Positions 20,008-48,463 of a DNA stretch of 64,000 bases are shown piece after piece (the first letter of the stretch is position 1; each line of letters opens with the position of its first letter). The translations under genes were made by a program, and so were the position numbers. Origin of the DNA: Streptomyces syringium (GTDB lineage: Bacteria > Actinomycetota > Actinomycetes > Streptomycetales > Streptomycetaceae); assembly GCF_017876625.1 (NCBI RefSeq), contig NZ_JAGIOH010000001.1, positions 434,001-498,000 of the forward strand, given 5' to 3'. Under the pieces are notes generated by a model. The model searched no databases and had not been told where the DNA came from. It was given only the letters and a program-made list of their open reading frames with translations.

Positions 20008-20046
20008 AACGGGTCGCTGGACGCCGCCGCCCCGGGGCAGCGAGCC

Positions 20047-20083
20047 GCCCTCTGTCCCCCCGGTGGGCGGGGGGACAGAGGGC
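20047..20083. terminator. Bidirectional terminator hairpin
   Basis: Perfect 15-bp stem (GCCCTCTGTCCCCCC with its complement) and a 7-base loop. It lies between the converging secreted-protein gene and phospholipase C gene and could serve both. Confidence 0.85.
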
Positions 20084-20110
20084 GGGCTGGTTTGCCGGTC
20101 GCGGAGAGGG

Positions 20111-32386: not shown

Positions 32387-35326
32387 GTGGAGGCTCCGCG
32401 CGTCGAGTTCAAGGTGCTGGGGCCCCTCGAGGTAGCCGCCGGCGACCGCGTCCTCCCGCTCGGCGGACCGAAACAGCGGACACTGCTCGCCACGCTGCTG
32501 ATCCACACCAATGCCGCGGTATCCGGGGACCGGCTGTGTGACGCCATCTGGGGAGCCGCCCCTCCCGTATCGGCCCAGGCCAATGTCCGCAGCTATGTCG
32601 CCGCGTTGCGCAAGGTGATCAACCCCGCCGCGGGCGAGGACCGGCTGAGCCAGGGCCACGGCGGCTATCAGTTGCGGGTACTGCCGGGCGAAGTGGACCT
32701 CCACCTGTACGAGGACCTGGCCGCGCGGGGCCGCGCCGCACTGGCCGGGGGCCGGCACCGGGCGGCGGCCGGTCATCTGCGCGAGGCACTGGACCTGTGG
32801 CGCGGCGGCGCTTTCGACGGGGTGGCGCACCACGACGCCCTGCACATCGAGGTGGCCCGCCTGGAGGAGTCGCGGCTGGCCGCGTTGGAGGACCACGCCG
32901 AGGCGCGCCTCGCGCTCGGGGACGCCCGTGACGTGATAGGCCCGCTCCAGGCGGAGGCGGCCCGGTACCCGATGCGGGAGTCGCTGTGGGCCAAACTGAT
33001 GACCGCGCAGTACCAGTGCCGCCGCCCGGGCGACGCGCTGCGGTCCTATGCCCTCGCCCGCGCCGCGCTCCGCGACGAACTCGGACTCGAACCGGGCGCG
33101 GAACTCCGCCGACTGCACCACGCGGTGCTCACCGGAGAACCGCTGCCGGAGCCGGAACCCGCACCCGTGTGTGCCGAACGCCCCGTGGACTGCTGGCAGC
33201 CCACGAGCCAACTCCCCTCCGACACCACCGACTTCGTCGGCAGGGAACTCATCCTGGCGCGGGCCGCGGCAGTGCTCGCCCCGGACACCCCGGCCTCCGG
33301 GGAAACACCGAGCTGCGCCGTGCCCGTCGTGATCCTCACCGGCCTCCCCGGCGTCGGCAAGACCGCCCTGGCCACCCGCCTCGCCCACGACCTGCGGGAC
33401 GCCTTCCCCGACGGCCGGCTGTTCGTGCACCTGGACGGTGCCCGCGGGCCCCGGCGCGCGCCCGGCGCGGTCCTCGCGGACCTGCTCGTCAGCCTGGGCG
33501 TCGCCGGATCCTCCATCCCCGAGGCGACGGTGGACCGCGCCGCGATGTTCCGCTCCCTGCTGTCCGGCCGCAAGGTATTGGTGCTGCTCGACGACGCACA
33601 GGACGAGGCGCAGATCCGGCCGCTGCTGCCCGGCACCCCGGGCAGCGCGGCCCTGGTCACCAGCAGGACGAGGATGGCCGGCCTGACGGGAGCCCAGCTG
33701 ATCGACGTCGCCCCGTTCAATGACGAGGAGTCACAGGACCTGCTGCGCCGCATCGTCGGCTCCCCACGGATCGCGGCCGAACCCGAGGCCACCGAGCGGG
33801 TCCTGGCCAGCTGCGCCGGCCTGCCCCTGGCCCTGCGCGTGACCGCGGCGCGGCTCGCGAGCCGCCCGCACTGGCGGATCCGGCGGCTCGCCGACCGCCT
33901 CGCCGACGAGCGGGGCAGACTGGCGGAACTCACGGTGGGAGACCTCGCCGTCCGCACCAGCGTCGCCGCCAGCTACCACGGTCTGACGCCCGAGGCCGCC
34001 CGGGCCTTCCGGGCCATCGGCATGCTTCCCTCGCCGGAGTTCCCGGGCTGGGCTCTCGCCGCCCTGCTCGACTCCCGCGACACCGACCAGGCGACCGACG
34101 TGCTGATCGACGCGAACCTGGTCCAGGTCGCGTCGGTCGACCGTCAGGGCCTGCCGTGCTATCGGACGCACGACCTGCTGCACGTCTACGCGGGGGAGCG
34201 TGCTCTGGACGAGGAACCGTCGGCATGGCGGCGGGCAGCCGTGACCCGCCTCCTGGACGGCTGGCTCTCCCGGCTGCGGACGGCCGCCGACCAGCTCATG
34301 CGCCGAGAGGCGGGGGAGGCCGTACGGAAAGAGACGGGGGACCTCGTCGGCTGGCTGGAGGGCGAGCGGGCCAGCCTGGTCACCGCGGTCGAGTTCGCCG
34401 CCAGTGCCGGCTACGGCACACAGACGGCGGAGCTGGCCTCCGCGATGGAGGACGTCTGTCATCTGCGGAACTGGTGGGACGAGTGGGAACGGGTGGCACG
34501 GGCCGCGCTCGACCGGGCGAGAGCCGACGGCGACCCGGTCGCCACCGCGGTCGCCCAGGGCTCCCTGGCCAGGGCCTTCGCCGTCCGCGGCCGGGTGGAC
34601 GACGCGGTGATCCGGTGGGCCGCGGCCATCGAGCAGCTGGACGCACGCGGCGAGGCGCACCACGCCGCCCGGCTGCGCACACACCGGAGCTTCGCGATCG
34701 CCGACCGGGGCATGGCCGAACCCGCCCACGACGACGCCCGGGCGGCGGCCGCCGTGATGAGCCGGCTCGGTGACGAGCACGGCGAGGTCGTCGCCCTGCG
34801 CAGCCTCGGCTTCGCGCTCGTCTGTCTGCGGCGCGAGACGGAAGCCGTCGACGTCCTGCAGTCGGCCCTGGCGACGGCGGAGCGACTCGGCCGGCCCCTC
34901 GCCCTCGCCGACGTCCTGCAACTGCTGGCGTGGGCCGAGATCTGCCACGGCCGGTTCGACCGGTGCGTCGGCCATCTGCACCGGGCCCTGGCCGCATACC
35001 GCACGGTGCGCCACCGGCCCGGTGAGGCGTACGCGCTGCTGACCCTGGGGCGGATGCACCTCGCCCTCGGCCCCGGCCAGGCCGCGCACGCCCTCGGCCC
35101 GCTCGGCGAGGCGGCGGCGGTCTTCACCGAACTCGGGGAACGCCGGGGCGAGGCACTCGCCTCCTACTGGCTGGGCCGCACCCACGCCGCGGCGGGTGAC
35201 CCCGACCGGGCGGAGAGCCACCTCGCCACGGCACTGACGGGATTCCGCACCCTGCGCATGCCGTTCTGGACCGAACAGGCACGGCTCGCGATCAGCCGTA
35301 TCACCCGGGCCGGCACCCCTTCCTGA
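32387..35326 (+). CDS. AfsR/SARP-type cluster-situated regulator (HTH-BTAD-NB-ARC-TPR)
   Basis: A 979-residue regulator immediately upstream of the isonitrile operon. Residues 5-100 form the SARP winged-helix domain (FKVLGPLEV, GPKQRTLLATLL, GYQLRV) and 105-250 the BTAD domain. The NB-ARC ATPase starts at about 280, with Walker A GLPGVGKT at 319-326 and Walker B VLVLLDDAQ near 406-414. From about 670 onward there are TPR-like helical repeats. The GTG at 32387 was chosen because GAAGGGCGG precedes it and the SARP domain begins there; the frame is open 43 codons further upstream. Regulators of this type are usually pathway-specific activators, so it is the best candidate switch for the downstream cluster. 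Confidence 0.93.
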   Translation: MEAPRVEFKVLGPLEVAAGDRVLPLGGPKQRTLLATLLIHTNAAVSGDRLCDAIWGAAPPVSAQANVRSYVAALRKVINPAAGEDRLSQGHGGYQLRVLPGEVDLHLYEDLAARGRAALAGGRHRAAAGHLREALDLWRGGAFDGVAHHDALHIEVARLEESRLAALEDHAEARLALGDARDVIGPLQAEAARYPMRESLWAKLMTAQYQCRRPGDALRSYALARAALRDELGLEPGAELRRLHHAVLTGEPLPEPEPAPVCAERPVDCWQPTSQLPSDTTDFVGRELILARAAAVLAPDTPASGETPSCAVPVVILTGLPGVGKTALATRLAHDLRDAFPDGRLFVHLDGARGPRRAPGAVLADLLVSLGVAGSSIPEATVDRAAMFRSLLSGRKVLVLLDDAQDEAQIRPLLPGTPGSAALVTSRTRMAGLTGAQLIDVAPFNDEESQDLLRRIVGSPRIAAEPEATERVLASCAGLPLALRVTAARLASRPHWRIRRLADRLADERGRLAELTVGDLAVRTSVAASYHGLTPEAARAFRAIGMLPSPEFPGWALAALLDSRDTDQATDVLIDANLVQVASVDRQGLPCYRTHDLLHVYAGERALDEEPSAWRRAAVTRLLDGWLSRLRTAADQLMRREAGEAVRKETGDLVGWLEGERASLVTAVEFAASAGYGTQTAELASAMEDVCHLRNWWDEWERVARAALDRARADGDPVATAVAQGSLARAFAVRGRVDDAVIRWAAAIEQLDARGEAHHAARLRTHRSFAIADRGMAEPAHDDARAAAAVMSRLGDEHGEVVALRSLGFALVCLRRETEAVDVLQSALATAERLGRPLALADVLQLLAWAEICHGRFDRCVGHLHRALAAYRTVRHRPGEAYALLTLGRMHLALGPGQAAHALGPLGEAAAVFTELGERRGEALASYWLGRTHAAAGDPDRAESHLATALTGFRTLRMPFWTEQARLAISRITRAGTPS

Positions 35327-35483
35327 AGCACTCTCCGAAGCGCTTCCGAACTCCTTCCGAGCCCTTCCGCAGGACCTCCTCCCCGGCGTGACCGGGCGGC
35401 TGCGCGACCCCTGCTGCGACCTCTTGTGCGTTTCTCATGCGCCCGCAGAGCACGGTGGGAACCAGTCCACGAAGGGAGGCGCG

Positions 35484-36518
35484 GTGTCCGATCCCACCGC
35501 ACCCAACATCGAACCGGTCGCCGAAGCGATACTCCGGGAGATCCTGTCCCACCAGCGCAGAATGCGCGGGGGCGGTTGCACCCAAGAGGTCTGCCCGCAG
35601 TGCGTCGGGCACCATCTGAACGCCGTGCGCAGCGCCGTGGAGAGCGGTCGGCGCATCGACTTCGTCCTGCCGGCGTTCCCGGTGAAGTCCCCGAACCCGG
35701 CCAAGGTGATCGGCCCGCTGCCCGATCTCGCCGAGGAACTCGCCCTGCGCTTCCTCAATTCGCTGTGCGAGCGCATCACCGAGATCCACCCACCGGGAGC
35801 GGCCATCCTGATCTGCTCCGACGGACGGGTCTTCAACGACCTGCTCGGGGTGAGCGACGAAAACGTCAGCGGCTACGCACAGGCGCTCGACGCCATGATC
35901 ACCGGCATCGAGGCCACCCACCTCGAACAGTTCACCCTCGACGACGTCTACGACGGCGCGGGCCACGAGGACATGCGCGCCATGCTCTCCGCCGGCTACG
36001 CCCCGACGATCGAGGAACTGCGCGCGGAGGTGCGCACCGGCGGTGCCCCCCTCGCCATGTACCGGGGCATCACCCGGTTCATGCTGGAGGACCTGTCCGG
36101 CCCGCACTACACCGGCACCCGCTCCGCGCTGCAACGTCACTGCCGAGCGCTCGCCTACCGCGTCATCCAGCGCAGCCGGGCGTGGGGCGGGCTGTTGGAC
36201 GGGCTCTTCCCGGCCGCCGTCCGGCTGTCGATCCATCCGCAGCCCTGTGCCACCGACAAGATAGGCATCCTGCTCGCGGACACCCCGGACGCCTGGCTCA
36301 CACCTTGGCACAGCGTCGCGGTCGAGTCCGGCGGACGCTTCACGCTCATGAAACGCGCCGAGGCCGAGAAAGCCGGAGCCGAGCTGGCCTTCACAGCGGG
36401 CCGTCCCAGCCACTACGCGCTGAAGCAGCCCGGCACATCCCACCCGGCCGACACGGTCGGCGTCGCCTCGGACCCCGCCTCCGCGCACCACGAGCCGTGG
36501 AGCCGGGCCTGCGCATGA
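35484..36518 (+). CDS. Isonitrile (isocyanide) synthase, PvcA/IsnA/DIT1 family
   Basis: A 344-residue enzyme of the Dit1/PvcA family. Characterised members convert the alpha-amino group of tyrosine or tryptophan into an isonitrile, taking the carbon from ribulose-5-phosphate. The family core is very clear: FVLPAFPVKSPNPAKV (residues 60-75), LPDLAEELALRFLN (79-92) and LICSDGRVFNDLLGV (109-123), with RLSIHPQPCATDKIGI near 255 and TPWHSVAVE near 290. An N-terminal CTQEVCPQC cluster (32-40) is also typical of bacterial members. The GTG at 35484 follows GAAGGGAGG. It is first in an operon with a PvcB-like oxygenase 70 bases downstream, the standard pair for making vinyl isonitriles. The amino acid substrate is inferred to be tyrosine from the HpaB-like hydroxylase. 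Confidence 0.95.
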   Translation: MSDPTAPNIEPVAEAILREILSHQRRMRGGGCTQEVCPQCVGHHLNAVRSAVESGRRIDFVLPAFPVKSPNPAKVIGPLPDLAEELALRFLNSLCERITEIHPPGAAILICSDGRVFNDLLGVSDENVSGYAQALDAMITGIEATHLEQFTLDDVYDGAGHEDMRAMLSAGYAPTIEELRAEVRTGGAPLAMYRGITRFMLEDLSGPHYTGTRSALQRHCRALAYRVIQRSRAWGGLLDGLFPAAVRLSIHPQPCATDKIGILLADTPDAWLTPWHSVAVESGGRFTLMKRAEAEKAGAELAFTAGRPSHYALKQPGTSHPADTVGVASDPASAHHEPWSRACA

Positions 36519-36588
36519 CGGCCACCCACGGATCCGCACCCGGCCCACGTGCCGTGTCCCCGCATCACGACCACAGGAGGAACACCCC

Positions 36589-37449
36589 ATGACCGACGAC
36601 CGCGATCCCCTCGCCGGCACCCGGTACGACATCACACCGATCAAGCCCTTCGGCGTGGCGATACAGGCGCTCGGGGAGGGCCGGCACGTCCGGGACATCC
36701 CCGTGGCACCGCTGCGGACGCTCGTGGCGGAGCATCACATCCTGCTGCTGCGCGGCTTCGACACCTTCGACGCACCGGACGAGCTGTCCGCGTACTGCGA
36801 GCGCTGGGGCGGGCTGAGCGTATGGCCCTTCGGCACCGTGCTCGAACTGGTCGAACAGGAACAGCCCGAGGACCACATCTTCGACAGCAGCTACATGCCG
36901 ATGCACTGGGACGGCATGTACCGCGAACAGATCCCGGAATTCCAGGTGTTCCAGTGCGTGAACGCGCCCGGCGCGGGCAACGGCGGTGAGACCACCTTCT
37001 CCCACACCACCGCCGTGCTCGAGCACACCGACCCGGAGACCGTCGCCCGATGGGCGAAGGTGACCGGCACCTACCACCGGGCGATGGAGTACTACAACAG
37101 CGTCACCGTTTCACCGATCGTGACCGCCCACCCCGTCCACGGCGCTCCGGTCATCCGCTACAACGAACCCACCGCCGCCGATGACGCCGACTTCGTCAAC
37201 CACCCCGACCTGCGGTTCTCGGGCCTGCCGGACGACGAGCTCGCCGAGGTCCACCGCAGCCTGCGCGCGGCGCTGTACGACCCCGCGCACCTCTACGCCC
37301 ACAGCTGGCAGACGGGCGATCTCGTGATCACCGACAATCACACGCTGCTGCACGGCCGGAACGCCTTCACCAGCGGCGCACCCCGCCACCTGCGCCGGGT
37401 GCAGGTGCTCGGCACACCGCCGCTGGACAACCCGGGGCTGGTGCGATGA
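36589..37449 (+). CDS. Fe(II)/2-oxoglutarate oxygenase, PvcB/IsnB family
   Basis: A 286-residue TauD/TfdA-fold dioxygenase. PvcB/IsnB partners act on the isonitrile-bearing amino acid made by PvcA/IsnA and usually decarboxylate or desaturate it to a vinyl isonitrile. The iron ligands are His106 and Asp108 (MPMHWDGMY) and His255 (LLHGRNAF); Arg near 269-270 (RHLRRVQVLG) binds 2-oxoglutarate. ITPIKPFGVAIQ at the start and NGGETTFSHT are characteristic. A good CAGGAGG site lies 9 bases before the ATG. The stop overlaps the next start (ATGA), so translation is coupled to the flavin hydroxylase. Confidence 0.94.
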   Translation: MTDDRDPLAGTRYDITPIKPFGVAIQALGEGRHVRDIPVAPLRTLVAEHHILLLRGFDTFDAPDELSAYCERWGGLSVWPFGTVLELVEQEQPEDHIFDSSYMPMHWDGMYREQIPEFQVFQCVNAPGAGNGGETTFSHTTAVLEHTDPETVARWAKVTGTYHRAMEYYNSVTVSPIVTAHPVHGAPVIRYNEPTAADDADFVNHPDLRFSGLPDDELAEVHRSLRAALYDPAHLYAHSWQTGDLVITDNHTLLHGRNAFTSGAPRHLRRVQVLGTPPLDNPGLVR

Positions 37450-38960
37450 ACCAGCAGCACACCCTCATGACGGGCGACGAGTACCTGGAGAGCCTGCGCG
37501 ACGGCCGCCAGGTGTACCTGGACGGAGACCGGGTCAAGGACGTCACCCGGCACCCGGCCTTCCGTAACTCCGCCCTGTCGGTGGCACGCCTCTACGACGC
37601 CCTGCACGACCCGGCGACCTCCGATGTGCTCACCGGGGTCGACGCGGGCACGGGCATCCGCACCCACAAGTTCTTCAAGCCCAGCCGTTCGGCGGCGGAG
37701 CTGGTCGAGGCCCGCGAGGCGATCGCCACCTGGGCGCGGATGAGCTACGGCTTCCTCGGCCGCACACCCGAGTACAAGGCGTCCTTCATGTCGGGCCTGG
37801 GAGTCAACGCCGACTACTACGGCCCGTACGCCGCCAACGCCGCCGCGTGGTACCGCGAGTTCGCGGGCAAGGCGCTGTACCTCAACCACGTCCTCATCAA
37901 TCCGCCGGTCGACCGCAAGCGGGCGATCCACGACATGGAGGACGTCTTCGTGCACGCCGTGCGCGAGACGGACGCCGGCGTCGTCGTCAGCGGGGCGAAG
38001 ATGCTGGCCACCGGCTCCGCCCTCACCAACGCGGGTTTCGTCGCCCCGGTCGGCTCGGCGGCCCTCGCCCCCGGCAAGGCCGAGCCCTTCGCCCTCGCGT
38101 TCTTCGTCCGGATGGACAACCCCGGGGTGAAGCTCGTCTGCCGCACCCCGTACGCCCAGGCCGCCGTCAGCCCCTTCGACGCCCCGCTGAGCAGCCGCTT
38201 CGACGAGAACGACAGCGTGCTCCTGCTCGACGAGGCCCTGATCCCCTGGGAGGACGTCCTCGTCTACCGGGACATCGAACGGGCGACGGGCTTCTACGCC
38301 ACGTCGGGCTTCGCGAACCTGTACAACTTCCAGTCCGGAATCCGGCTGAGCGTGAAGCTGGAACTCATGGCCGGACTGCTCGCCCGCGGCACCAGGGCGA
38401 ACGGCACCGACGCGTTCCGCGGGGTCCAGGCCGCCGTCGGGGAGGTCATCACCATGCGGGACATGGTGTGGGCCCTGACCTCGGCGATGGCGTACGACCC
38501 CGAACCGGGCGGCGGCGGCATGGTCGTGCCACGGCTCGAGCACGCCTCCGCGATGCGGATGTACAACGCCCAGGTGTGGGACCGGGTCCACGAGCTCTTC
38601 GAGACCACCCTCGGCGGAGCGCCCCTGGCCGTCCCGTCGAGCGCCCGCGACCTGACCAACCCCGAACTGCGGCCGCTCATCGACCGCTTCTACCGCGGCG
38701 CGGACACCAGCGCCCTGGACCGCATCAAGCTCCTGAAGCTGGTCTGGGACGCGATCGGCACCGAGTTCGGCGGCCGGCACGAGCTCTACGAGCGCAACTA
38801 CTCGGGCAACGGCGAACAGGTCCGGCTGGACGCGCTGAAGTGGGCGACCCGGCGCGGCAACCTCGCCCGCTACGAAGCCCTGGTGCAGGACTGCCTCGAC
38901 GACTACGACGTCGACGGCTGGCGCAGAGGCCCGTGGCACGACCTGACCCCCACCGACTGA
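37446..38960 (+). CDS. HpaB/PvcC-type FADH2-dependent phenol 3-hydroxylase
   Basis: A 504-residue protein of the 4-hydroxyphenylacetate 3-monooxygenase oxygenase-component family (HpaB), to which PvcC of the Pseudomonas paerucumarin cluster also belongs. These enzymes use reduced flavin to add a second hydroxyl next to a phenol, making a catechol. Diagnostic segments are MTGDEYLESLRDGRQVYLDGDRV at the N-terminus, YGPYAANAAAWYREFAGKALYLNHVLINPP in the middle and RFYRGADTSALDRIKLLKLVWDAIGTEFGGRHELYERNYSG at the C-terminus. No flavin reductase (HpaC) is encoded nearby, so a housekeeping reductase must supply FADH2. The adjacent LigB-type dioxygenase would act on the catechol formed. Confidence 0.94.
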   Translation: MNQQHTLMTGDEYLESLRDGRQVYLDGDRVKDVTRHPAFRNSALSVARLYDALHDPATSDVLTGVDAGTGIRTHKFFKPSRSAAELVEAREAIATWARMSYGFLGRTPEYKASFMSGLGVNADYYGPYAANAAAWYREFAGKALYLNHVLINPPVDRKRAIHDMEDVFVHAVRETDAGVVVSGAKMLATGSALTNAGFVAPVGSAALAPGKAEPFALAFFVRMDNPGVKLVCRTPYAQAAVSPFDAPLSSRFDENDSVLLLDEALIPWEDVLVYRDIERATGFYATSGFANLYNFQSGIRLSVKLELMAGLLARGTRANGTDAFRGVQAAVGEVITMRDMVWALTSAMAYDPEPGGGGMVVPRLEHASAMRMYNAQVWDRVHELFETTLGGAPLAVPSSARDLTNPELRPLIDRFYRGADTSALDRIKLLKLVWDAIGTEFGGRHELYERNYSGNGEQVRLDALKWATRRGNLARYEALVQDCLDDYDVDGWRRGPWHDLTPTD

Positions 38961-38976
38961 GGAACGGAGCAGACAC

Positions 38977-40845
38977 ATGTGTGGCATCACCGGATGGGTC
39001 GACTACACCCGCGACCTCACCACCGCATCCCCGGTCGTCGACGCCATGACCGACACCCTGGCCGCCCGAGGGCCCGACGCCCGCGGCACATGGCTCGACA
39101 CGCACGTCGCGCTGGGGCACCGGCGACTGGCCGTCATCGACCTCGAGCACGGCACACAGCCCATGCGCACCCCGGAGCGCGGCCCCCGGGACCTGCCCCG
39201 GGCAGTGATCTCGTACGGCGGAGAGATCTACAACTTCCGCGAGCTCCGCTCCGAACTCGTCCTGCGCGGGCACCGGTTCACCACCCGCAGCGACACCGAG
39301 GTGGCGCTGCGCGCCTACCTGGAGTGGGGCGAGGACTTCGTCCACCGCCTCAACGGCATGTACTCCCTCGCCATCTGGGACACCGCCCGCGACGAGCTGC
39401 TGCTCGTACGGGACCGGCTGGGCGTCAAACCCCTCTACTACTACCCCACACCGGACGGTGTGCTCTTCGGCTCGGAGCCGAAGGCCATCCTCGCCAACCC
39501 CCTGGCGCGGGCCGAGGCGGGACCGGAGGAGCTCTGCGACGCGCTGCTGTTCCTGCGCACCCCCGGGCGGGTGCCCTTCCGCGGCATGCGCGAGGTCAAG
39601 CCGGGCCACCTGGTGCGCGTCGGCCGCGGCCGGATCACCGAGGAGCGGTACTGGGCCCTGGAAGCCCGCCCGCACACCGACGACCTGCCGACCACCGTCG
39701 CCACCGTCCGCGAGCTGCTCGACGACATCGTCCCCCGCCAGATGGTCGCTGACGTCCCCCTGGTCTCGCTGCTGTCCGGCGGCCTGGACTCCAGCACGAT
39801 CACGGCTCTCGCCGCGCGGGCCCGGGCCACGACCGGAGACGGCCTCGCCACGTTCTCCGTGGACTTCACCGGCCACACCGAGAACTTCCAGGCCGACGCC
39901 ATCCGCCCCACCCCGGACGGCCCGTACGCCCGGGCGGTCGCCGAGCACGTCGGCAGCGACCACCACCCCATCGTCCTCGACCGCGCCCGGCTGCTCGACC
40001 CGGCCGTCCGCCGGAGCGTCCTCGGCGCCTGGGACCTGCCGTTCAACTTCGCGGACCTCGACGTCTCCCTCCATCTGCTCTTCGCCGCCGTCCGCGAACA
40101 CGCGACCGTGGCACTGTCCGGAGAGGGCGCCGACGAGGTCTTCGGCGGCTACCTGTGGTTCTCCGACCCCGTCGCGCGGCGCGCGGAGACCTTCCCCTGG
40201 CTGAAGCTCGGCGCCCACCGGGGCCTCGACCCCCGTTCGCTGTTCCACCCCTGGTTCGTCGACGGGCTCGACCTCGGGGAGTACGAGGCCGATCTCTACC
40301 GCACCGCACTGGCCGAGGTGCCGCGGCTCGAAGGCGAGAGCGCCGAGGACCGGCGGACCCGGGAGCTCAGCCATCTGACGCTGACCCGGTGGCTGCCGAT
40401 CCTGCTCGACAAGAAGGACCGGATGGGCATGTCCGTCGGGCTGGAGGGCCGGGTGCCGTTCTGCGACCACCGCTTGGTGGAATACGTCTACAACGTCCCC
40501 TGGGCGATGAAGACCTTCAGCGGCGAGGAGAAGTCGCTGCTGCGCGCGGCCGCCGCCGACCTGCTGCCGGAACCGGTGCTGCGCCGCAAGAAGGCCGCCT
40601 ACCCCTCCATCCAGGACCCCGCCTACGACCGCGCCCTGATCACCGGCCTCACCACGGCGGCGGGCGACGACAGCGCGCCGCTGAGCCCGTTCCTCGCCGG
40701 CGAGGCGGTGCGGCGGCTCACGGCCAAGACCTTCGGGGGCAGTCTGTCGGAGTTCGAACGGATCCTCGTGGAGTCCACCGTCCGCCTGGACGACTGGCTG
40801 CGTACCTACCAGGTCGGACTGACCGGAGTGAAGGGAACGAACTGA
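38977..40845 (+). CDS. Glutamine-dependent asparagine synthetase-like amidotransferase (AsnB family)
   Basis: A 622-residue class B asparagine synthetase. Cys2 (MCGITGW) is the glutaminase nucleophile and the N-terminal Ntn domain spans about 1-215. The synthetase domain carries the PPi-loop SGGLDSS (267-273), and later GEGADEVFGGY and DRMGMSVGLEGRVPF. In primary metabolism it amidates aspartate with ammonia from glutamine. Paralogues inside biosynthetic clusters amidate other carboxylates or build unusual amide or lactam bonds. Its position between the hydroxylase and the QOR-like gene, and its 1-base overlap with the latter (TGATG), make it part of the pathway. A carboxylate exposed by extradiol cleavage is one possible substrate (inference). 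Confidence 0.94.
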   Translation: MCGITGWVDYTRDLTTASPVVDAMTDTLAARGPDARGTWLDTHVALGHRRLAVIDLEHGTQPMRTPERGPRDLPRAVISYGGEIYNFRELRSELVLRGHRFTTRSDTEVALRAYLEWGEDFVHRLNGMYSLAIWDTARDELLLVRDRLGVKPLYYYPTPDGVLFGSEPKAILANPLARAEAGPEELCDALLFLRTPGRVPFRGMREVKPGHLVRVGRGRITEERYWALEARPHTDDLPTTVATVRELLDDIVPRQMVADVPLVSLLSGGLDSSTITALAARARATTGDGLATFSVDFTGHTENFQADAIRPTPDGPYARAVAEHVGSDHHPIVLDRARLLDPAVRRSVLGAWDLPFNFADLDVSLHLLFAAVREHATVALSGEGADEVFGGYLWFSDPVARRAETFPWLKLGAHRGLDPRSLFHPWFVDGLDLGEYEADLYRTALAEVPRLEGESAEDRRTRELSHLTLTRWLPILLDKKDRMGMSVGLEGRVPFCDHRLVEYVYNVPWAMKTFSGEEKSLLRAAAADLLPEPVLRRKKAAYPSIQDPAYDRALITGLTTAAGDDSAPLSPFLAGEAVRRLTAKTFGGSLSEFERILVESTVRLDDWLRTYQVGLTGVKGTN

Positions 40846-41825
40846 TGCACGCGATCGAGATCCGTGAGACCGGCGGGCCCGAGGTCCAGCTCTACGTCGA
40901 GCGGGCGGACCCCCGGCCGGGCGAGGGGCAGATCCTCGTCGAACTCGCCGCGGCCGGAGTGAACTTCATCGACCTCTACCGCAGGGAGGGCCGCTATCCG
41001 CTGCCCGTGCCGTGCGTACCCGGCGAGGAGGGCTCGGGGACCGTGGTTGCCACCGGCCCCGGCGTCAGCCGGTTCAGGCCGGGCGACCGGGTCGCCTGGA
41101 CCACGGTCCTCGGCAGCTACGCGACCCGCGTGGTCGTGCCCGAGGACAAGGCGATCGCCGTGCCGGACGGCATCGACCTGGTCACCGCCGGCGGAGTGCT
41201 CGTCCACGGCATGACGGCCCACTTCCTGGCCAACGACTCCTACCCGGCGCGCGCAGGCGACACGGTGCTCGTCCACGCCGCCGCCGGCGGGGTCGGGCTC
41301 CTGCTCACCCAGCTGCTCAAGCGGCGGGGTGCCCGCGTCATCGGCACGGTCTCCACAGCGGAGAAGGAGACCCTGGCCCGGGGGAACGGCGTCGACGACG
41401 TCATCCGCTACACCGAGTTCACCGAGGAGGGGGCCCTGGCCGCCGAGGTGCGCCGGCTCACCGGCGGGGAGGGTGTCCACGCCGTCTACGACGGCGTGGG
41501 CGCCACCACCTTCGACGCGAGCCTCGCCAGTCTGCGCACCCGCGGCACCCTGGTCCTCTTCGGCGGCGCCGGCGGCGCCGTGCCGCCCGTCGACGTGATG
41601 CGGCTGCTGTGGGGCGGCTCCCTGACCCTGACACGGCCCTACCTGGAGCACTTCCGGGCCACCACCGAGGAGTTCGCGTGGCGGGCGGGGGAGGTCTTGA
41701 CCGGCATCCTCGACGGCACCTGGAAGTTCACCGTCGCCGGAACGTACCCCCTCGCCGAGGCCCGCCGCGCGCACGAGGACCTCGCGGCCCGGCGCACCAG
41801 CGGAAAGCTTCTGCTCGTTCCCTAG
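40845..41825 (+). CDS. NADPH:quinone oxidoreductase-like MDR enzyme
   Basis: A 326-residue zinc-independent medium-chain dehydrogenase/reductase of the QOR (zeta-crystallin) group. Motifs are AAGVNFIDLYRREGRYPLP, PGEEGSGTVVATGPGV, the NADPH-binding AAAGGVGLLLTQLLKRRGA (about 146-164) and the substrate-cavity strings VYDGVGATTF and FGGAGGAV. The ATG overlaps the asnB stop codon by one base. In the pathway it may reduce an enone, quinone or imine intermediate generated after catechol oxidation or cleavage; this is inference. The start is fixed by the overlap and by the conserved MHAIEIRETGGPEV opening. Confidence 0.92.
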   Translation: MHAIEIRETGGPEVQLYVERADPRPGEGQILVELAAAGVNFIDLYRREGRYPLPVPCVPGEEGSGTVVATGPGVSRFRPGDRVAWTTVLGSYATRVVVPEDKAIAVPDGIDLVTAGGVLVHGMTAHFLANDSYPARAGDTVLVHAAAGGVGLLLTQLLKRRGARVIGTVSTAEKETLARGNGVDDVIRYTEFTEEGALAAEVRRLTGGEGVHAVYDGVGATTFDASLASLRTRGTLVLFGGAGGAVPPVDVMRLLWGGSLTLTRPYLEHFRATTEEFAWRAGEVLTGILDGTWKFTVAGTYPLAEARRAHEDLAARRTSGKLLLVP

Positions 41826-41852
41826 CCCTCTCGACCGCGAAGGAGGTCGCCC

Positions 41853-42746
41853 ATGGGCGACATCGTCGGTGCGGGCCTGCTCTCGCACGCACCCGTCATC
41901 ATGTTCCCCGAGCCGGTGAGGATCAGGGAGAACGGAGGCCGTGACTTCACCCTCGCCACCGGCCTGACCCGGCTCCGGCACGAGGTGATCGACACGACCG
42001 ACCACGACACCGTCGTGGTGTTCGACAGCCACTGGGCGACCACGACCGAAACGGTGATCACCGCCCACCCGCGCCGCGCGGGCCTGTTCACCTCGGACGA
42101 GATGCCCGGCGCGATCAGCCGGCTGCCCTACGACATCCCCGGGGACCCGGAGCTGGCCCACACCGTCGCCAGGGCGGCGGAGCGGCGATCACGGTGGCTC
42201 ACCGCCAACGACGACCCGTATCTGCCGATCCACTACGCGACGCTCAACCTCTGGACCTACCTCGGCCGGGCCGGTACCCCCTGGGTCTCCGTCTCGGTCT
42301 GCCAGACGGCGACCACCGAGGACTTCCTCGAAGCCGGCGAGGTCGTCGCGGAGGCGGTCGCCGGCCTCGACCGCAAGGTGCTGCTGCTCGCCTCGGGAGG
42401 CCTGTCCCACCGCTTCCGGCCACTGGCCGAACTGCGCGAGCGCATGGCGGGGGACCCGGACAACATCGTCACCCCCGAGGCGCGCGCGGCCGACGAACAG
42501 CGCATCGCCTGGCTCGAGGCGGGCCGCCACGACCGGGTGATCGGGTCCATGCCGGAGTACCTCCGCTTCGCCCCCGAGGCACGTTTCGGTCACTACCTGA
42601 TGCTGGCCGGTGCGCTCGGCGGCGCGGACTGCGGGGCGCGGGGCAGCCGCTTCAGCAGCTACGAGAACGGCATAGGCACCGGGCAGGCCCACCTCTGGTT
42701 CGACCGGCCCGCCACCGGACGGCAGCACGAGGTGATCGGTCGCTGA
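41853..42746 (+). CDS. LigB-superfamily class III extradiol ring-cleavage dioxygenase
   Basis: A 297-residue non-heme Fe(II) dioxygenase related to 3,4-dihydroxyphenylacetate 2,3-dioxygenase (HpaD) and LigB. The family opens the aromatic ring of a catechol next to the diol. Candidate iron ligands are His12 (LLSHAPVIM), His60 (VVFDSHWAT) and a Glu in SSYENGIG near the C-terminus; LASGGLSHRF holds the conserved acid-base His region. The ATG follows GAAGGAGG. A perfect 19-bp terminator hairpin begins about 25 bases after the stop, so this is the last gene of the first operon. A ring-cleaving enzyme next to an isonitrile synthase and a phenol hydroxylase is unusual among the isonitrile clusters I know of. 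Confidence 0.92.
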   Translation: MGDIVGAGLLSHAPVIMFPEPVRIRENGGRDFTLATGLTRLRHEVIDTTDHDTVVVFDSHWATTTETVITAHPRRAGLFTSDEMPGAISRLPYDIPGDPELAHTVARAAERRSRWLTANDDPYLPIHYATLNLWTYLGRAGTPWVSVSVCQTATTEDFLEAGEVVAEAVAGLDRKVLLLASGGLSHRFRPLAELRERMAGDPDNIVTPEARAADEQRIAWLEAGRHDRVIGSMPEYLRFAPEARFGHYLMLAGALGGADCGARGSRFSSYENGIGTGQAHLWFDRPATGRQHEVIGR

Positions 42747-42771
42747 GGGCGATTCCGCCGCCTCGGGCCTC

Positions 42772-42813
42772 TTCCCTCCCGTCCCGCCGGTGCTCCGGCG
42801 GGACGGGAGGGAA
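42772..42813 (+). terminator. Strong terminator splitting the isonitrile cluster into two operons
   Basis: A 19-bp perfect stem (TTCCCTCCCGTCCCGCCGG with its complement) around a TGCT loop, just after the LigB-type gene. It is the longest hairpin seen in the window. The 143 bases that follow must contain the promoter of the second operon. Confidence 0.88.
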
Positions 42814-42956
42814 TCCTTCCGGTACCGGCCGTGAGCCCGCCGTGTCCGGATCCGCCCCAGGCCACCGGGTGTAGACCGGCCCTGGATGGATAAGGATCGG
42901 CCGGGGCGGTGCCTTGCAGCGGCCCGCCCGCCTTGTCGCAGGGAGGGACGTCTGAG

Positions 42957-44432
42957 ATGGATGGTGCCCCGTTATATCTGGAGCCACGGCTGGAACAGCC
43001 GTTGGCGTCGTTGCTGGAGTCGGCGGCGTTCCTCCACACCCTGGTCGACGCGCTGGGCTCGCCGCTCCATGTCGTCCTGCCCGAGCGGATCGCGGAGAAC
43101 GTCGAGCGATTCCGTTCCGTCTACCGCCGCCACAGCCTGGCCGGCCAGGTGTTCTTCGCCCACAAGGCGAATCGTTCCAGCGCCCTGGTGCGCCGGCTCG
43201 CGATGACCGACGCCGCCATCGACGTGGCGTCGCTGGGCGAACTGCAGCATGCCCTCGGCGCCGGATTCGGCCCGGAGCGCATCGTCGCGACCGGCCCCAA
43301 GGACCCGGAGTTCCAGTGGCTCGCCGCCCGCTGCCGGGTCACCGTCAGCATCGACGGGCCGGAGGAACTGGAAAGCCTCGCCGCCCTCGTGCGCGCCCAC
43401 GGGCTGCCACCGGTGCCGGTATTGCTGCGGTTGTCGGAGTTCGAGACGTCCGGAGTCACGGTGCGCTCCCGGCAGAGCCGCTTCGGCTCCTCCATGAGGT
43501 CGCTGCCCCGGCTGCTCGACGCCGTCGCACGACACCGGGACGTCCTCGGTCCGGCCGGCGTCGCCTACCACCTCGACACCACCAGCCTGGACGAGAAGGC
43601 GACGGCCCTCGAAGGCTGCCTCCGGGCCATGGACGCGCTGCGACGCCGGGGATTCACGCCGCGCGCCGTCGACATCGGCGGCGGCTTCGGCGTCAACTAC
43701 CTTGCCCACGAGGCCGAATGGGACCGCTACACCACCGAACTCACCCACGCGGTCCTGGGCAGACGGCCGCCCCTGACCCGCGGCGGCCACGGCTACGGCC
43801 TCCGGGCCGAAGGCGGCACCCTGCGCGGCGCGCTGAGTCTGTACCCCGCCCACCGCCCCGTCGCCGGGCCCGGCTATCTCGACGCGCTGCTGTCCCGGCC
43901 CGCCCCGGCCCTGAACCGGCCGCTGGGCACCCTCCTCCTGGAGAACCTCTACGACCTGTACACCGAACCCGGCCGGGCCCTGCTGGACCAGTGCGGGCTG
44001 TCGCTGGCGAAGGTGCTGGAAGTACGGCGCACCGACCGTGGTGATCCCCTGGTGCGCCTCGCGATGACGGCCGACGACGTCAGCCTGGAGGAACACGGCG
44101 TCCTCATGGACCCGGTGCTCCTCGCCCGTGAAGGTGCCCCCTCCGAAACCGGCGAGGGAAGCGGCCCGGTGGGCGTGCACCTCGCCGGCAGTCTCTGCCT
44201 GGAAGCCGACCTGATCACCCGGAGAACGGTGTTCCTGCCCCGTATGCCACGGCCGGGCGACCTCCTGTGCTTCGCCAACACCGCCGGGTACTGCATGGAC
44301 TTCCAGGCCACCCAGGCGCAGCGCCGGCCCGCCGCCCGGAAGGTCGCGGTGCACCGGGAGGGCGGCTCCTGGCGCTGGTGTCTCGACGAGCGGTACTGGC
44401 CCATCACACATCCGGGAGGGCACGAGGCATGA
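42957..44432 (+). CDS. Fold-III PLP enzyme (DAP/ornithine decarboxylase-like; possibly Y4yA family)
   Basis: A 491-residue alanine-racemase-fold PLP enzyme. The TIM-barrel domain carries the Schiff-base lysine Lys70 in QVFFAHKANRSS; GSSMRSLPRLL and the glycine-rich DIGGGFGVNYLA bind the cofactor phosphate. The C-terminal beta domain has AGSLCLEADLI, whose Cys corresponds to the catalytic cysteine of diaminopimelate decarboxylase, and ANTAGYCMDF. The substrate-specificity helix is not typical of DAP, ornithine or arginine decarboxylase, so another amino acid or an amino-acid conjugate is likely. It resembles the uncharacterised Y4yA group (from memory). Its stop overlaps the next start (ATGA). 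It begins the second operon of the cluster. Confidence 0.88.
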   Translation: MDGAPLYLEPRLEQPLASLLESAAFLHTLVDALGSPLHVVLPERIAENVERFRSVYRRHSLAGQVFFAHKANRSSALVRRLAMTDAAIDVASLGELQHALGAGFGPERIVATGPKDPEFQWLAARCRVTVSIDGPEELESLAALVRAHGLPPVPVLLRLSEFETSGVTVRSRQSRFGSSMRSLPRLLDAVARHRDVLGPAGVAYHLDTTSLDEKATALEGCLRAMDALRRRGFTPRAVDIGGGFGVNYLAHEAEWDRYTTELTHAVLGRRPPLTRGGHGYGLRAEGGTLRGALSLYPAHRPVAGPGYLDALLSRPAPALNRPLGTLLLENLYDLYTEPGRALLDQCGLSLAKVLEVRRTDRGDPLVRLAMTADDVSLEEHGVLMDPVLLAREGAPSETGEGSGPVGVHLAGSLCLEADLITRRTVFLPRMPRPGDLLCFANTAGYCMDFQATQAQRRPAARKVAVHREGGSWRWCLDERYWPITHPGGHEA

Positions 44433-45748
44433 GGTACGACAGCATCACCGACGCCATCGGCGACACCCCGCTGGTACGCATCGATCCGGCCGTGCACGGC
44501 CTGCGCACCATCGACCTCTACGCGAAGCTGGAGATGCTCAACCCCTTCGGGTCGGTCAAGGACCGGGCGGCCTGGAACATGGTGCGGCCCGGACTGCCCG
44601 CGGCGGTGCGCCGCGGCGAGACGGTCGTGGAGCTCTCCAGCGGCAACACGGCCAAGGCGCTGGCCGTCATCGCGGGCATGCACGGGCTGCCGTTCAAGAG
44701 CATCACCAACCGGATGCGGGTACCGGAGATCAAGGACCTGCTCCTGCTGCTCGGCGCCGCGATCGAGGAACTGCCCGGACAGACCGAATGCCTCGACCCC
44801 ACCAACACCGACGACCCGCTCACCCTCTTCCACCAGGAACTGTCACAGCCGGGCAGCCCCAACCTCCACACCGACCAGTACTTCAACGCACGCAACACCG
44901 AGTCCCACGCCACCGGCACCGGCCCGGAGATCGTGGCGGACCTCGACGGGCGGGCACCGGACTTCTTCATCGCCTGTGTCGGCACCGCCGGTTCCTCCAC
45001 CGGGGTGGCCCGGGTCCTTCGCGCGCACGACCCCGCGGTACGGGTCGTCGGTCTGGTCGCGCAGAAGTCGGACTTCATACCGGGGATCCGCACCATCGAC
45101 GAGGTGCAGGAGGTCGGCCTCTTCGACCCCGCCACGTACGACACGATCGAGGCCGTGAGCGCCGACGAGGCCATCGACGGCATGCTGACGCTGGTACGGC
45201 GCTGCGGCATCCTGGGCGGCCCCACCGGCGGGGCCGCGTACTTCGGGGCGCTGCGCCATCTGCGCCCGCTCGACGCCGGGTCGACCGAGCGGAGGACGGC
45301 CGTCTTCATCGTCTGCGACCGCGTCGAGAGCTACGTCGGCTACGTGCGCCAACGCCGCCCGGACCTGCTGGGCAGGCCGCCGGTGAAGAACTCCGTGAGC
45401 GCGCTCTCCGAAGCCGAGGTGGCGGCCGCCACGGTGATCGACACCGCCGACGCGCGGAAGTGGATCGCGGAGGAACGCCCCCTGGTCGTCGACCTGCGGG
45501 GCTCCTTCGCCTATGCCGCGCTGCACATCGAGGGGTCGGTGAACATCGTCGACGAGCTCTTCGACGAACTCCTGCGGGGCGGCCTGCCGTTCAGCAAGCG
45601 ACAGGCCGTGCTGCTGGCCTGCCCGGTCGGCGAGAAGTCCGTCCGCTATGCCGCCCTGCTGACCCGTATGGGCCACCCCGACGTCCGCAGCCTGGCCGGC
45701 GGCATCATCGCCTGGCGCGACGCGGGCGCCCCACTGGAGCGTGGCTGA
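44429..45748 (+). CDS. Cysteine synthase-like PLP enzyme fused to a rhodanese domain
   Basis: A 439-residue fusion. Residues 1-320 are a fold-II PLP enzyme of the O-acetylserine sulfhydrylase/cystathionine beta-synthase type: MLNPFGSVKDRAAWNM with PLP-Lys44, SSGNTAKALAVIAG (substrate loop) and GILGGPTGGAAYFG near 265. From about 345 to the end is a rhodanese domain: PLVVDLRGSFAYAALHIEGSVNI, then active-site Cys398 in LLACPVGEKSVR, and AGGIIAWRDAG. Rhodaneses carry sulfane sulfur as a cysteine persulfide. The fusion, sitting next to a SufS-like desulfurase, suggests sulfur is passed to a beta-replacement reaction or to the isonitrile itself (inference). The start is fixed by the ATGA overlap with the upstream gene. 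Confidence 0.9.
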   Translation: MRYDSITDAIGDTPLVRIDPAVHGLRTIDLYAKLEMLNPFGSVKDRAAWNMVRPGLPAAVRRGETVVELSSGNTAKALAVIAGMHGLPFKSITNRMRVPEIKDLLLLLGAAIEELPGQTECLDPTNTDDPLTLFHQELSQPGSPNLHTDQYFNARNTESHATGTGPEIVADLDGRAPDFFIACVGTAGSSTGVARVLRAHDPAVRVVGLVAQKSDFIPGIRTIDEVQEVGLFDPATYDTIEAVSADEAIDGMLTLVRRCGILGGPTGGAAYFGALRHLRPLDAGSTERRTAVFIVCDRVESYVGYVRQRRPDLLGRPPVKNSVSALSEAEVAAATVIDTADARKWIAEERPLVVDLRGSFAYAALHIEGSVNIVDELFDELLRGGLPFSKRQAVLLACPVGEKSVRYAALLTRMGHPDVRSLAGGIIAWRDAGAPLERG

Positions 45749-46940
45749 CATGGACCGACCGCTGGAGGATCTGCGCGACTGGCAGCGTCCGCTGCGCGCC
45801 GAGTTCCCCATCATCGTGGACCATCCGGACCTGGCCTATCTGGACAGCGCGGCCACCGCGCAGAAGCCGCGGGCGGTCCTGGACGCCGTGCAGACGTACC
45901 TCACCACGTCCAACGCCAACTCCGGCCGTGGCACATACCCCTGGGCCAATGCCACGACGACGCTGGTGGAGCGGACCCGCGACCGGGTCAAGGAGTTCCT
46001 GGGCGACCCCGCCCCGGACCGCTCGGCCGTGCACTTCACCAGCGGTACCACCGAAGGGCTGCGCACCGTGGCCCGCGACTGGCTGCCCGCCGTCCTGACC
46101 GACGGCGACGAGATCGTGGTGCCCTTCGCCGACCATCAGGCGAATCTCTCGCCCTGGCTGGAAGCGCGGCAACTGCTGGCCCGCCAGGGGATCCACATCG
46201 CTGTTCGCCCCCTGCCGTACCAGGAGAGCTCGGGCGACTACGACCCGCGGGCGCTGGCGGACATCGTCGGCCCCCGCACCCGCTTCGTCGCCGCCACCCA
46301 TGTGCACCACGTCTACGGCGGCGACATGAACGTCCACCGCATCCGCCGGGTGGTCGGCCCCGAGGTGCCGATCTGTCTGGACGCCGCGCAGAGCGTCGGC
46401 CATCTGCCGGTCTCCGTGGCCGATCTCGACGTGGACTTCCTGGTCTTCTCCGGGCACAAGGTCCTCGCCCTGCCGGGCTCCGGGGCGGTCTGGTCCCGTG
46501 GAACGCGCGGGCCGCGGCTCCGCCCCGGCGGGTGGAGCGGCACACCGAACACCGCCGGCATCGCCGGCCTGGCGGCCGCCCTCGACTGGTTGGACGCGGC
46601 GGGCCTGGACCGGATCGAACGATGGACCGTCGCCCTGGCCGCCCGGCTCACCGACGGCCTGCACCGGCTGTCCGCCTACGAGGTCCTGGGCTGTCCGCTG
46701 AGCCTGCCCGCAGGGTCCCCGGTGCAGCGGCGCCGGAGCATCGTCACCTTCCGGCACCGCGGGGTCAACTCCAACGACCTCGGGTTCATCCTCTTCAGTC
46801 ACGGCTTCATGGTGCGGTCCGACGGCCACTGCCAGGCCGGGGCAGCAGGGGAAGAAGGGTCCGTGCGGGTGAGTCTGCACATCCACAACACCCCAGAAGA
46901 GATCGACGCGTTGCTCTCCGCCCTCGCTAAACTACAATGA
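45741..46940 (+). CDS. SufS-like cysteine desulfurase (class V aminotransferase family)
   Basis: A 399-residue fold-I PLP enzyme. Key features are YLDSAATAQKP at the N-terminus, His132 in FADHQANLSPW, CLDAAQSVGH (Asp214), the PLP lysine Lys240 in FSGHKVLALPGSG, and a late Cys364 in RSDGHCQAG matching the RxGxHC persulfide loop of SufS-group enzymes. All the residues needed to take sulfur from cysteine are present. GTG 45741 overlaps the upstream stop codon; ATG 45750 is an alternative. No Fe-S assembly genes accompany it, so the sulfur is probably destined for the pathway product through the adjacent rhodanese domain. Its stop overlaps the methyltransferase start. Confidence 0.92.
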   Translation: MADMDRPLEDLRDWQRPLRAEFPIIVDHPDLAYLDSAATAQKPRAVLDAVQTYLTTSNANSGRGTYPWANATTTLVERTRDRVKEFLGDPAPDRSAVHFTSGTTEGLRTVARDWLPAVLTDGDEIVVPFADHQANLSPWLEARQLLARQGIHIAVRPLPYQESSGDYDPRALADIVGPRTRFVAATHVHHVYGGDMNVHRIRRVVGPEVPICLDAAQSVGHLPVSVADLDVDFLVFSGHKVLALPGSGAVWSRGTRGPRLRPGGWSGTPNTAGIAGLAAALDWLDAAGLDRIERWTVALAARLTDGLHRLSAYEVLGCPLSLPAGSPVQRRRSIVTFRHRGVNSNDLGFILFSHGFMVRSDGHCQAGAAGEEGSVRVSLHIHNTPEEIDALLSALAKLQ

Positions 46941-47749
46941 TTGTCAATACCACCAGAACGCGGGCGGGTGAGATGGCTGAGGTGCGCAGCAGGCCGGGCG
47001 TGAGCGCGGCGACGGCGGCACGCTGGGTGAAGCGTTGGGAAGGCCAACAGCAACGGTATGCGGTCGACCGCGAGGAACGCTTCACCGTGATCGCCGACGT
47101 GGTCGACCACGTCACGGCCGGCCGCCCGAGACCCCTGGTCGTCGACCTCGGCTGCGGCCCCGGAGCACTGGCGGCGTGCCTGTCGCGCCGCCTGCCGCAC
47201 GCGGAAGTCCTCGCCGTCGACGCCGACCCGCTGCTGCTCGAACTCGGCCGCACCTACTACGGCCCCGCCGTCCGGTACGTCGAAGCGGTGATCGGCGCAC
47301 CGGGCTGGCTCAGGACCCTCGGCCTGGACCGTCCCCTGGACGCGGCCGTCTCGACGACGGCACTGCACTACCTCGGCGAGCGCACCCTGCGGCAGGTCTA
47401 CCGTCAGCTCGCCGCCCTGCTGCGCCCCGGCGGCATCCTCGTCAACGGCGACCACCTCTGCCAGGACGCCGCGAAGATCTCCAGGATCGCCACCGCCGTC
47501 GGGCGCCGCTGGGCCGAACGAAGAGCGGTGCTCGCCCACGAGGACTGGCAATCCTGGTGGACGGCGATGGAAGCCGACCCGGAGCTGGCTCCTCTCCTCG
47601 CCGAGCGCCGCACCCGCCCGCTCCCCAGCAGTCAGGGCGAGGATCTGACGCTCTCCCGCCACATCACGCTCCTGCGCGAGGCGGGATTCGAGCACGCCGG
47701 CGCGGTCTGGCAATTCGGCAACAGCCACGTCCTGGTCGCCGTCCGTTGA
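46937..47749 (+). CDS. Class I SAM-dependent methyltransferase
   Basis: A 270-residue methyltransferase with SAM-binding motif I LVVDLGCGPGALAACLSRRLP (about 60-80), the acidic post-I residue in VLAVDADPLLLELG, and motif III-like RPGGILVNGDH. The N-terminal ~45 residues are helical and basic. The ATG overlaps the cysteine desulfurase stop (ATGA), making this the fourth coupled gene and the end of the second operon. It probably O-, N- or S-methylates the cluster product; the closest visible style is small-molecule methyltransferases rather than rRNA or protein ones. Confidence 0.9.
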   Translation: MIVNTTRTRAGEMAEVRSRPGVSAATAARWVKRWEGQQQRYAVDREERFTVIADVVDHVTAGRPRPLVVDLGCGPGALAACLSRRLPHAEVLAVDADPLLLELGRTYYGPAVRYVEAVIGAPGWLRTLGLDRPLDAAVSTTALHYLGERTLRQVYRQLAALLRPGGILVNGDHLCQDAAKISRIATAVGRRWAERRAVLAHEDWQSWWTAMEADPELAPLLAERRTRPLPSSQGEDLTLSRHITLLREAGFEHAGAVWQFGNSHVLVAVR

Positions 47750-48304: not shown

Positions 48305-48425
48305 GGGGTGTCCTCCTGGAGACCGATGGTGCCCTCCCGGCGAGGGCCCCGCATCCGGGCGAGCGAAGACATCGGGGTCGCTGACGCGCTCGACCGGCGC
48401 CGCCGCCTGATACGAGGCATGCACA

Positions 48426-48458
48426 GCCCTGGGGGAGGGGCCGGGCCTCCCCCAGGGC
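48426..48458 (-). terminator. Terminator of the ABC exporter gene
   Basis: Perfect 13-bp stem (GCCCTGGGGGAGG with its complement) and a 7-base loop, a few bases past the exporter stop codon. Confidence 0.8.
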
Positions 48459-48463
48459 GCCCG

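Follow-up and report, generated by a model that had tools for sequence, protein, structure and literature searches.

A seven-gene unit likely making an isonitrile and an apparently separate four-gene sulfur cassette in Streptomyces syringium

Organization of the Locus

The stretch of DNA analyzed in this work, hereafter the window, comprises 64,000 nucleotides of Streptomyces syringium (NCBI RefSeq assembly GCF_017876625.1, contig NZ_JAGIOH010000001.1; G000:C1:434001-498000 in our numbering), whose genome has 7.7 Mb in two contigs and whose nearest relative is S. netropsis. The subject is a row of eleven genes, all on the + strand and ending at position 47749, which a previous reading of the letters alone (the original prediction) had described as an isonitrile biosynthetic cluster with an unusual enzyme set. 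The eleven genes and the families assigned to them there were confirmed by domain matches and conserved order. The first seven are referred to below as unit 1 and the last four as unit 2.

Unit 1 is headed by a gene for an AfsR/SARP-type regulator (32387..35326; Pfam BTAD at 2.5e-41, together with NB-ARC and TPR), followed by genes for an IsnA/PvcA isonitrile synthase (35484..36518, start position chosen; PF05141 and PDB 3e59, PvcA) and for the Fe/2-oxoglutarate desaturase IsnB (36589..37449; TauD, PDB 3eat and 7tcl). These are followed by an HpaB/PvcC-type flavin-dependent phenol hydroxylase (37446..38960; HpaB_N and HpaB, PDB 4oo2), an AsnB-type glutamine-dependent amidotransferase (38977..40845; GATase and Asn_synthase, TIGR01536), a QOR-like reductase of the zinc-binding-dehydrogenase family (40845..41825; ADH_N and ADH_zinc_N) and a LigB class III extradiol ring-cleaving dioxygenase (41853..42746; PF02900). 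Unit 2 encodes a fold-III decarboxylase dependent on pyridoxal phosphate (PLP; 42957..44432; Orn_Arg_deC_N), a CysK-like PLP enzyme fused to a rhodanese domain (44429..45748; PALP and Rhodanese), a SufS-like cysteine desulfurase (45750..46940; Aminotran_5, the sufS model and SufS in PDB) and a class I methyltransferase dependent on S-adenosylmethionine (46937..47749; Methyltransf_25).

Gaps of 157 and 70 bp separate the regulator from IsnA and IsnA from IsnB, respectively; from IsnB to LigB the gaps range from -4 to 27 bp, 210 bp lie between LigB and the decarboxylase, and within 42957-47749 the genes are spaced by -4 to 1 bp. Because the order of unit 1 is kept at 57-98% protein identity across species and the cassette genes occur together in 39 of 40 loci, chance reading frames were ruled out. 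Two further features, unseen in the original prediction, lie between the units on the + strand: the tail end of an HpaC-like flavin reductase gene (42768..42812), of which 15 residues remain with 93% identity to the S. netropsis gene (E 4e-4), and a perfect hairpin of 19 bp with a loop of 4 (42772..42813), detected by a hairpin scan of the 64-kb window. In S. netropsis an intact HpaC-like gene stands between LigB and the PLP decarboxylase, and alignment of the two DNAs placed the loss of about 470 bp from the window at a break between 42747 and 42752.

Domains and Conserved Residues of the Unit 1 Enzymes

IsnA exceeded the PF05141 cut-off by a wide margin (262 bits vs. 26.4), and its best match in PDB was PvcA (3e59, 2.1e-82). 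According to PMC9467999, enzymes forming vinyl isonitriles carry Lys or Arg at position 107 of PIsnB and Asn or His at position 188, the PvcB type having Leu and Cys. Aligned to PIsnB and PvcB, the window IsnB presents R112 and N192 at these signature sites, and Arg along with Asn or His was found in all nine other unit 1 loci; the Leu/Cys pair that would mark a paerucumarin-type enzyme is absent from the window protein. Among IsnB proteins from other clusters, four have Arg/Asn (L132-L135) and two do not (L130 and L131). As judged from R112 and N192, the signature points to a decarboxylating, vinyl-isonitrile type of IsnB.

Both HpaB domains scored over their cut-offs (289 and 197 bits), the protein matched PDB 4oo2 at 2.2e-152, and at E<=1e-30 the genome holds no other match to it. 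A putative partner of this hydroxylase, an HpaC-like flavin reductase (PF01613), is encoded 3' of LigB in six of the ten genomes with unit 1 that are presented below; its best NCBIfam models were HpaC_Thermus and related reductases, all under cut-off. No flavin reductase was found after LigB in S. griseocarneus, S. triculaminicus or genome G873, and the window operon keeps only the remnant. Six other PF01613 genes in the host genome could be the source of reduced flavin.

AsnB scored 479 bits against TIGR01536 (cut-off 267) and has the N-terminal Cys2, kept in 9/9 other unit 1 loci. The best NCBIfam model for the QOR-like protein, NADPH:quinone reductase, gave 234 bits, under its cut-off of 348. 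For LigB, 80.8 bits were obtained against PF02900 (cut-off 26.3), and an AlphaFold model built from a 30-row alignment (pLDDT 87) matched best in PDB the 3,4-dihydroxyphenylacetate 2,3-dioxygenase 8iq8, with TM scores of 0.85/0.89. His12, His60, His186, and Glu242 are conserved in the nine other unit 1 loci, so that both the predicted fold and the metal site agree with those of an extradiol dioxygenase; we take the His/His/Glu set to be the metal site and the further His to be catalytic.

A quick tree of 61 LigB rows was split into a unit 1 side (41 rows) and a side of other Streptomyces LigB proteins (20 rows) with an SH-aLRT value of 100. Sequences from Burkholderia and from uncultured organisms fall on the unit 1 side; the proteins of Burkholderia thailandensis and its kin (P0160, P0161, and P0163) are about 70% identical to the window LigB (71% in B. 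thailandensis). Within 297 genomes of the same family, LigB of the unit 1 type (83% identity or more) was present in three, namely the window genome, S. netropsis, and G265. The remaining 34 matches were 55-60% identical, and six of these loci that were inspected have another neighbourhood, common to them, which we read as catabolic because a similar LigB on an S. lunaelactis plasmid is annotated beside an aldehyde dehydrogenase and a fumarylacetoacetate hydrolase.

Occurrence of Unit 1 in Other Genomes

An IsnA alignment, run against the species genomes of GTDB, yielded four loci, in S. netropsis CECT 3265 (G142), S. celluloflavus NRRL B-2493, S. griseocarneus JCM 4580 (G265), and S. triculaminicus JCM 4242, and in all four, found by IsnA alone, the seven genes stood in order. 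Among 392 genomes drawn from the genus, a LigB threshold of E<=1e-118 selected 11: seven with the full unit 1 (the window genome, G907, G736, G738, G893, G873, and G724), one with AsnB-QOR-LigB only (G700), and three with LigB alone, the latter grouping in the tree with the other Streptomyces LigB proteins. The full unit was thus present in seven of the eight genomes found by LigB of the unit 1 type. Since G907 is S. triculaminicus, it was counted once, and the order AfsR-IsnA-IsnB-HpaB-AsnB-QOR-LigB was the same in ten distinct genomes with differing flanks; the regulator heads the unit in the nine other genomes at 57-93% identity. Genes that overlap (in several loci QOR and IsnB) escaped the gene caller used, which also reported some antisense frames, and its output served for the flanks only.

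Homologues of LigB and IsnA were also found in the same organism on contigs of equal size in Amycolatopsis sp. NPDC059657 (109705), S. rimosus (28398), and Streptomyces sp. NPDC006385 (34309), and a further pair was found on contigs of equal size (23523).

The S. syringium genome has a second isonitrile synthase gene, 49% identical to IsnA (L146 6199-14749, about C1:1467700-1476250), neighboured by genes for a cytochrome P450, ABC transporter parts, a periplasmic binding protein, and a heavy-metal P-type ATPase. The IsnA gene of another genome, G120 (L040), likewise lies next to a P450 and a heavy-metal ATPase.

Proposed Pathway of Unit 1

Gene content, gene order, conservation, active-site residues, and the predicted fold of LigB were established directly, and from them we infer every reaction, the order of the reactions, and the product. 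We hold with moderate confidence that two neighbouring sets of genes lie at this locus: a seven-gene unit that likely makes an isonitrile derived from tyrosine, with hydroxylation of its ring to a catechol and opening of the latter as predicted further steps, and a separate four-gene sulfur-amino-acid cassette with a predicted product of its own.

In the proposed scheme, IsnA would convert the amino group of L-tyrosine to the isonitrile, and IsnB, by desaturation with loss of CO2, would give 4-hydroxystyryl isonitrile. HpaB would then add a second hydroxyl with FADH2 from a flavin reductase, supplied in trans in the window strain, and LigB would open the catechol next to the side chain to a 2-hydroxymuconic semialdehyde carrying the vinyl isonitrile; the position of cleavage, beside the side chain, is predicted after relatives of the homoprotocatechuate type. 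AsnB may act thereafter, amidating the new acid or giving ammonia for a ring closure of the picolinamide or azepine type, and the QOR-like enzyme would reduce a conjugated double bond. AsnB is placed after LigB because IsnB would remove the carboxylate of the substrate and ring opening would make the only one left, plus one aldehyde. The same consideration would readily explain the constant company of AsnB and LigB, as the LigB step would supply the carboxylate on which AsnB acts.

Several observations weigh against this scheme. IsnA scored below the NCBIfam equivalog for L-tyrosine isonitrile synthase (299 bits vs. a cut-off of 600), so that tyrosine is its presumed substrate, and IsnB as a whole is closer to PvcB (280 bits), its best PDB match, than to PIsnB (242 bits). 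HpaB remained under the NCBIfam model for 4-hydroxyphenylacetate hydroxylase (HpaB-2; 564 bits vs. 885), its substrate being likewise a predicted one, and it could act instead on free tyrosine, or on the isonitrile ahead of IsnB. For LigB the nearest NCBIfam model was HpaD_Fe, homoprotocatechuate 2,3-dioxygenase, with 105 bits vs. a cut-off of 316, and a catechol of the isonitrile series is therefore a putative substrate. Finally, in G700 (L182) the 9 kb that precede AsnB-QOR-LigB of the unit 1 type contain no IsnA, IsnB or HpaB, and AsnB, QOR, and LigB may accordingly also act on something else.

In an alternative explanation, the pathway would end at a catechol isonitrile, or at a coumarin (paerucumarin, for example), with LigB, QOR, and AsnB serving to degrade or detoxify surplus catechol. 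The affinity of LigB to HpaD_Fe and the breakdown-type clusters of its relatives are in line with this explanation, as is genome G196, which has IsnA-IsnB-HpaB and no LigB match in the 20 kb fetched. We nevertheless regard it as unlikely, since LigB, QOR, and AsnB accompanied IsnA in all the loci found by IsnA alone, the aldehyde dehydrogenase and fumarylacetoacetate hydrolase that partner LigB in S. lunaelactis are not among the eleven genes of the window, and the PvcB-type residues are lacking in IsnB.

Going beyond the seven-gene unit as such, we propose tentatively, and with less than even confidence, that unit 1 represents a kind of isonitrile pathway not described before: an extradiol dioxygenase would open the ring of a styryl isonitrile derived from tyrosine, and nitrogen supplied by the AsnB-type enzyme would close it again to give a bacterial non-benzenoid isonitrile of the pyridine, azepine or cyclopentene type, a counterpart of the ring-contracted isonitriles of Trichoderma. 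To our knowledge, the aryl isonitriles described from bacteria keep their aromatic ring. No paper joining an isonitrile (isocyanide) with an extradiol dioxygenase was found in the openly licensed literature, in agreement with the earlier remark that no characterized pathway has this combination. From a conserved gene set uniting isonitrile synthesis with meta-cleavage of a catechol, a scaffold of new chemistry that perhaps binds metals is predicted, and its product can be searched for in the four named strains (of ten genomes) given above for the IsnA scan.

Comparison with Known Systems

Among known systems, the pvcABC(D) genes for paerucumarin in Pseudomonas aeruginosa resemble unit 1 in that IsnA and IsnB are followed by an HpaB-type hydroxylase, the role taken by PvcC in the paerucumarin pathway; unit 1 differs in the vinyl-isonitrile residues of IsnB and in the additional AsnB, QOR, LigB, and AfsR regulator. 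Rhabduscin-type IsnA-IsnB pathways, to which PIsnB belongs, share with unit 1 the R112/N192 signature and the predicted 4-hydroxystyryl isonitrile, whereas catechol formation and ring cleavage are predicted for unit 1 alone and no glycosyltransferase occurs in its seven genes. The meta-cleavage route of homoprotocatechuate (HpaB/HpaC/HpaD-Fe) has its likeness in the single row of HpaB, HpaC-like reductase (6/10 genomes) and HpaD-Fe-like dioxygenase. Unlike that route, unit 1 is tied to an isonitrile synthase, contains neither an aldehyde dehydrogenase nor a fumarylacetoacetate hydrolase, and has a LigB that stands apart in the tree.

The cyclopentenyl isonitriles of Trichoderma (trichoviridin and dermadin) are fungal and, like the predicted product, non-aromatic; they reportedly arise from tyrosine by ring opening and contraction, according to labelling work. 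In the part of PMC10804414 available, no pathway for the Trichoderma isonitriles was found.

The Sulfur Cassette

The CysK-rhodanese protein was searched in the 297 genomes of the same family (E<=1e-60) and was present in 61 of them, the window genome included, which is about one in five; at the same threshold, 5 of 396 genomes from the whole phylum were positive, two of them from another family. Loci were taken from 40 of the 60 other positive genomes. The decarboxylase, the CysK-rhodanese, and the SufS-like protein were encoded in 40/40 loci and the methyltransferase in 39/40, and the catalytic residues checked were intact in every case (39/39 for the methyltransferase). The flanks were variable, no other family appearing in more than 7 of the 40 loci, save for a frame in place of CysK (14 loci) that is probably an antisense miscall.

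In the fusion protein, the PLP lysine Lys44 and the rhodanese cysteine Cys398 were conserved in all 40 loci, and the basic residue past the cysteine loop of the rhodanese varied (K in 24, Q in 12, and R in 4). Its CysK part stayed under the NCBIfam cysteine synthase cut-off (163 bits vs. 344). An AlphaFold model of the fusion had a mean pLDDT of 59 and was set aside. In two sequences (G119:C34:107365-108677 and G122:C1:8394319-8395667) the CysK and rhodanese parts lie in different frames, and the fusion may there be split or the assembly frameshifted. The SufS-like protein gave 250 bits with the sufS model (cut-off 475) and 1.6e-49 with SufS in PDB, with Lys237 and Cys361 in 40/40 loci. The decarboxylase is remote from named enzymes (115 bits with lysA vs. 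a cut-off of 298; best PDB match E 1e-14), and its key residues were likewise kept in 40/40. A sequence pattern, composed post hoc, was present in 12 of 41 upstream stretches of the cassette vs. 1.2 in base shuffles, which is a hint that the cassette may have its own promoter.

A relay of sulfur from SufS to the rhodanese cysteine and on to CysK would make a beta-substituted sulfur amino acid, to be next decarboxylated and methylated, giving a product of its own for which no link to unit 1 would be needed. No described product of a CysK-rhodanese/SufS operon was found in the openly licensed literature, where only encapsulin work turned up on clusters of cysteine synthase, rhodanese, and cysteine desulfurase in Streptomyces.

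Relation Between the Two Units

Unit 1 was present in only one of the 40 fetched cassette loci, that of S. netropsis (L028), and absent from the other 39; one of these 39 (L040) carries, on the opposite strand, a different type of IsnA with 45% identity. Among the 61 cassette genomes, 59 were without LigB of the unit 1 type, and 37 were without any IsnA match at E<=1e-30. Conversely, of the ten genomes with unit 1, two (the window genome and S. netropsis) have the cassette adjoining and seven lack it, their CysK matches being 33-37% identical. In the tenth, G873, the cassette is represented by its first three genes, 38 kb downstream and in the same orientation, with no methyltransferase match there at E<=1e-15.

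The hairpin between the units (42772-42813) is the longest perfect one in the window when loops of 3-8 are considered, and the segment 42747-42840 has a folding z-score of -5.7. In S. netropsis it is kept with 17 pairs and one compensatory change from T-A to C-G. A function as a terminator would be a guess.

The description of the locus as an isonitrile cluster with an unusual set consequently holds for the first seven genes, with HpaB, AsnB, QOR, and LigB together in ten genomes; with the last four included, the eleven genes look like two units and not one pathway. The suggestion of an isothiocyanate, also made originally, has lost its main support, as sulfur-transfer genes did not stay with the isonitrile genes in seven of ten genomes; adjacency in two species still speaks for it. 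Setting the cassette apart guards against a wrong prediction of the product.

A single sulfur-containing product from all eleven genes would be the contrary case. The SufS-rhodanese-CysK relay would then sulfurate the isonitrile carbon, to an isothiocyanate or thioformamide, or the intermediate left by ring opening, and the molecule would be finished by the decarboxylase and the methyltransferase. It is favored, to the detriment of the two-unit interpretation, by the common strand of the units, their distance of 210 bp, and the adjacency kept in S. netropsis, by the repetition of order and strand in G873, and by the co-occurrence of the cassette with any IsnA, slightly over expectation (24 of 297 genomes vs. 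15.8 expected; Fisher p 0.013, kinship uncorrected). The hairpin, which separates the units and would count for two, is itself open to doubt: a scan for a terminator with a T-run found none there, and in S. netropsis the hairpin falls within roughly the final 20 codons of the flavin reductase gene. Weighing against one product are the absence of unit 1 from 39 of 40 cassette loci and of the cassette from seven of ten unit 1 genomes, together with a case from Burkholderia. According to PMC12195442, the sinapigladioside cluster of Burkholderia contains isonitrile synthases and its product bears an isothiocyanate. Locus L201 of B. stagnalis YJ-2, probably this cluster as judged from that article, shares IsnA-IsnB with unit 1 at 49-58% identity; it presented no LigB, AsnB or HpaB match within 10 kb, and a search of 17 kb detected neither CysK-rhodanese nor SufS. 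All in all, we consider a single product from the eleven genes quite improbable.

That CysK-rhodanese and SufS protect from cyanide released by the isonitrile, through formation of beta-cyanoalanine or thiocyanate, is very improbable: rhodaneses do transfer sulfur to cyanide and cyanoalanine synthases are CysK relatives (PDB 6pmu was among the CysK matches), but most cassette genomes lack the unit 1 LigB and many lack IsnA, as counted above, and the decarboxylase and methyltransferase would be left unexplained.

Downstream of the cassette, on the - strand, lie a convergent gene for an F420/PPOX-type protein and an ABC exporter (window 47789-50617), with a hairpin of 13 bp at 48426-48458. The second longest perfect hairpin of the window, of 18 bp with a loop of five, is located at 20045-20085.

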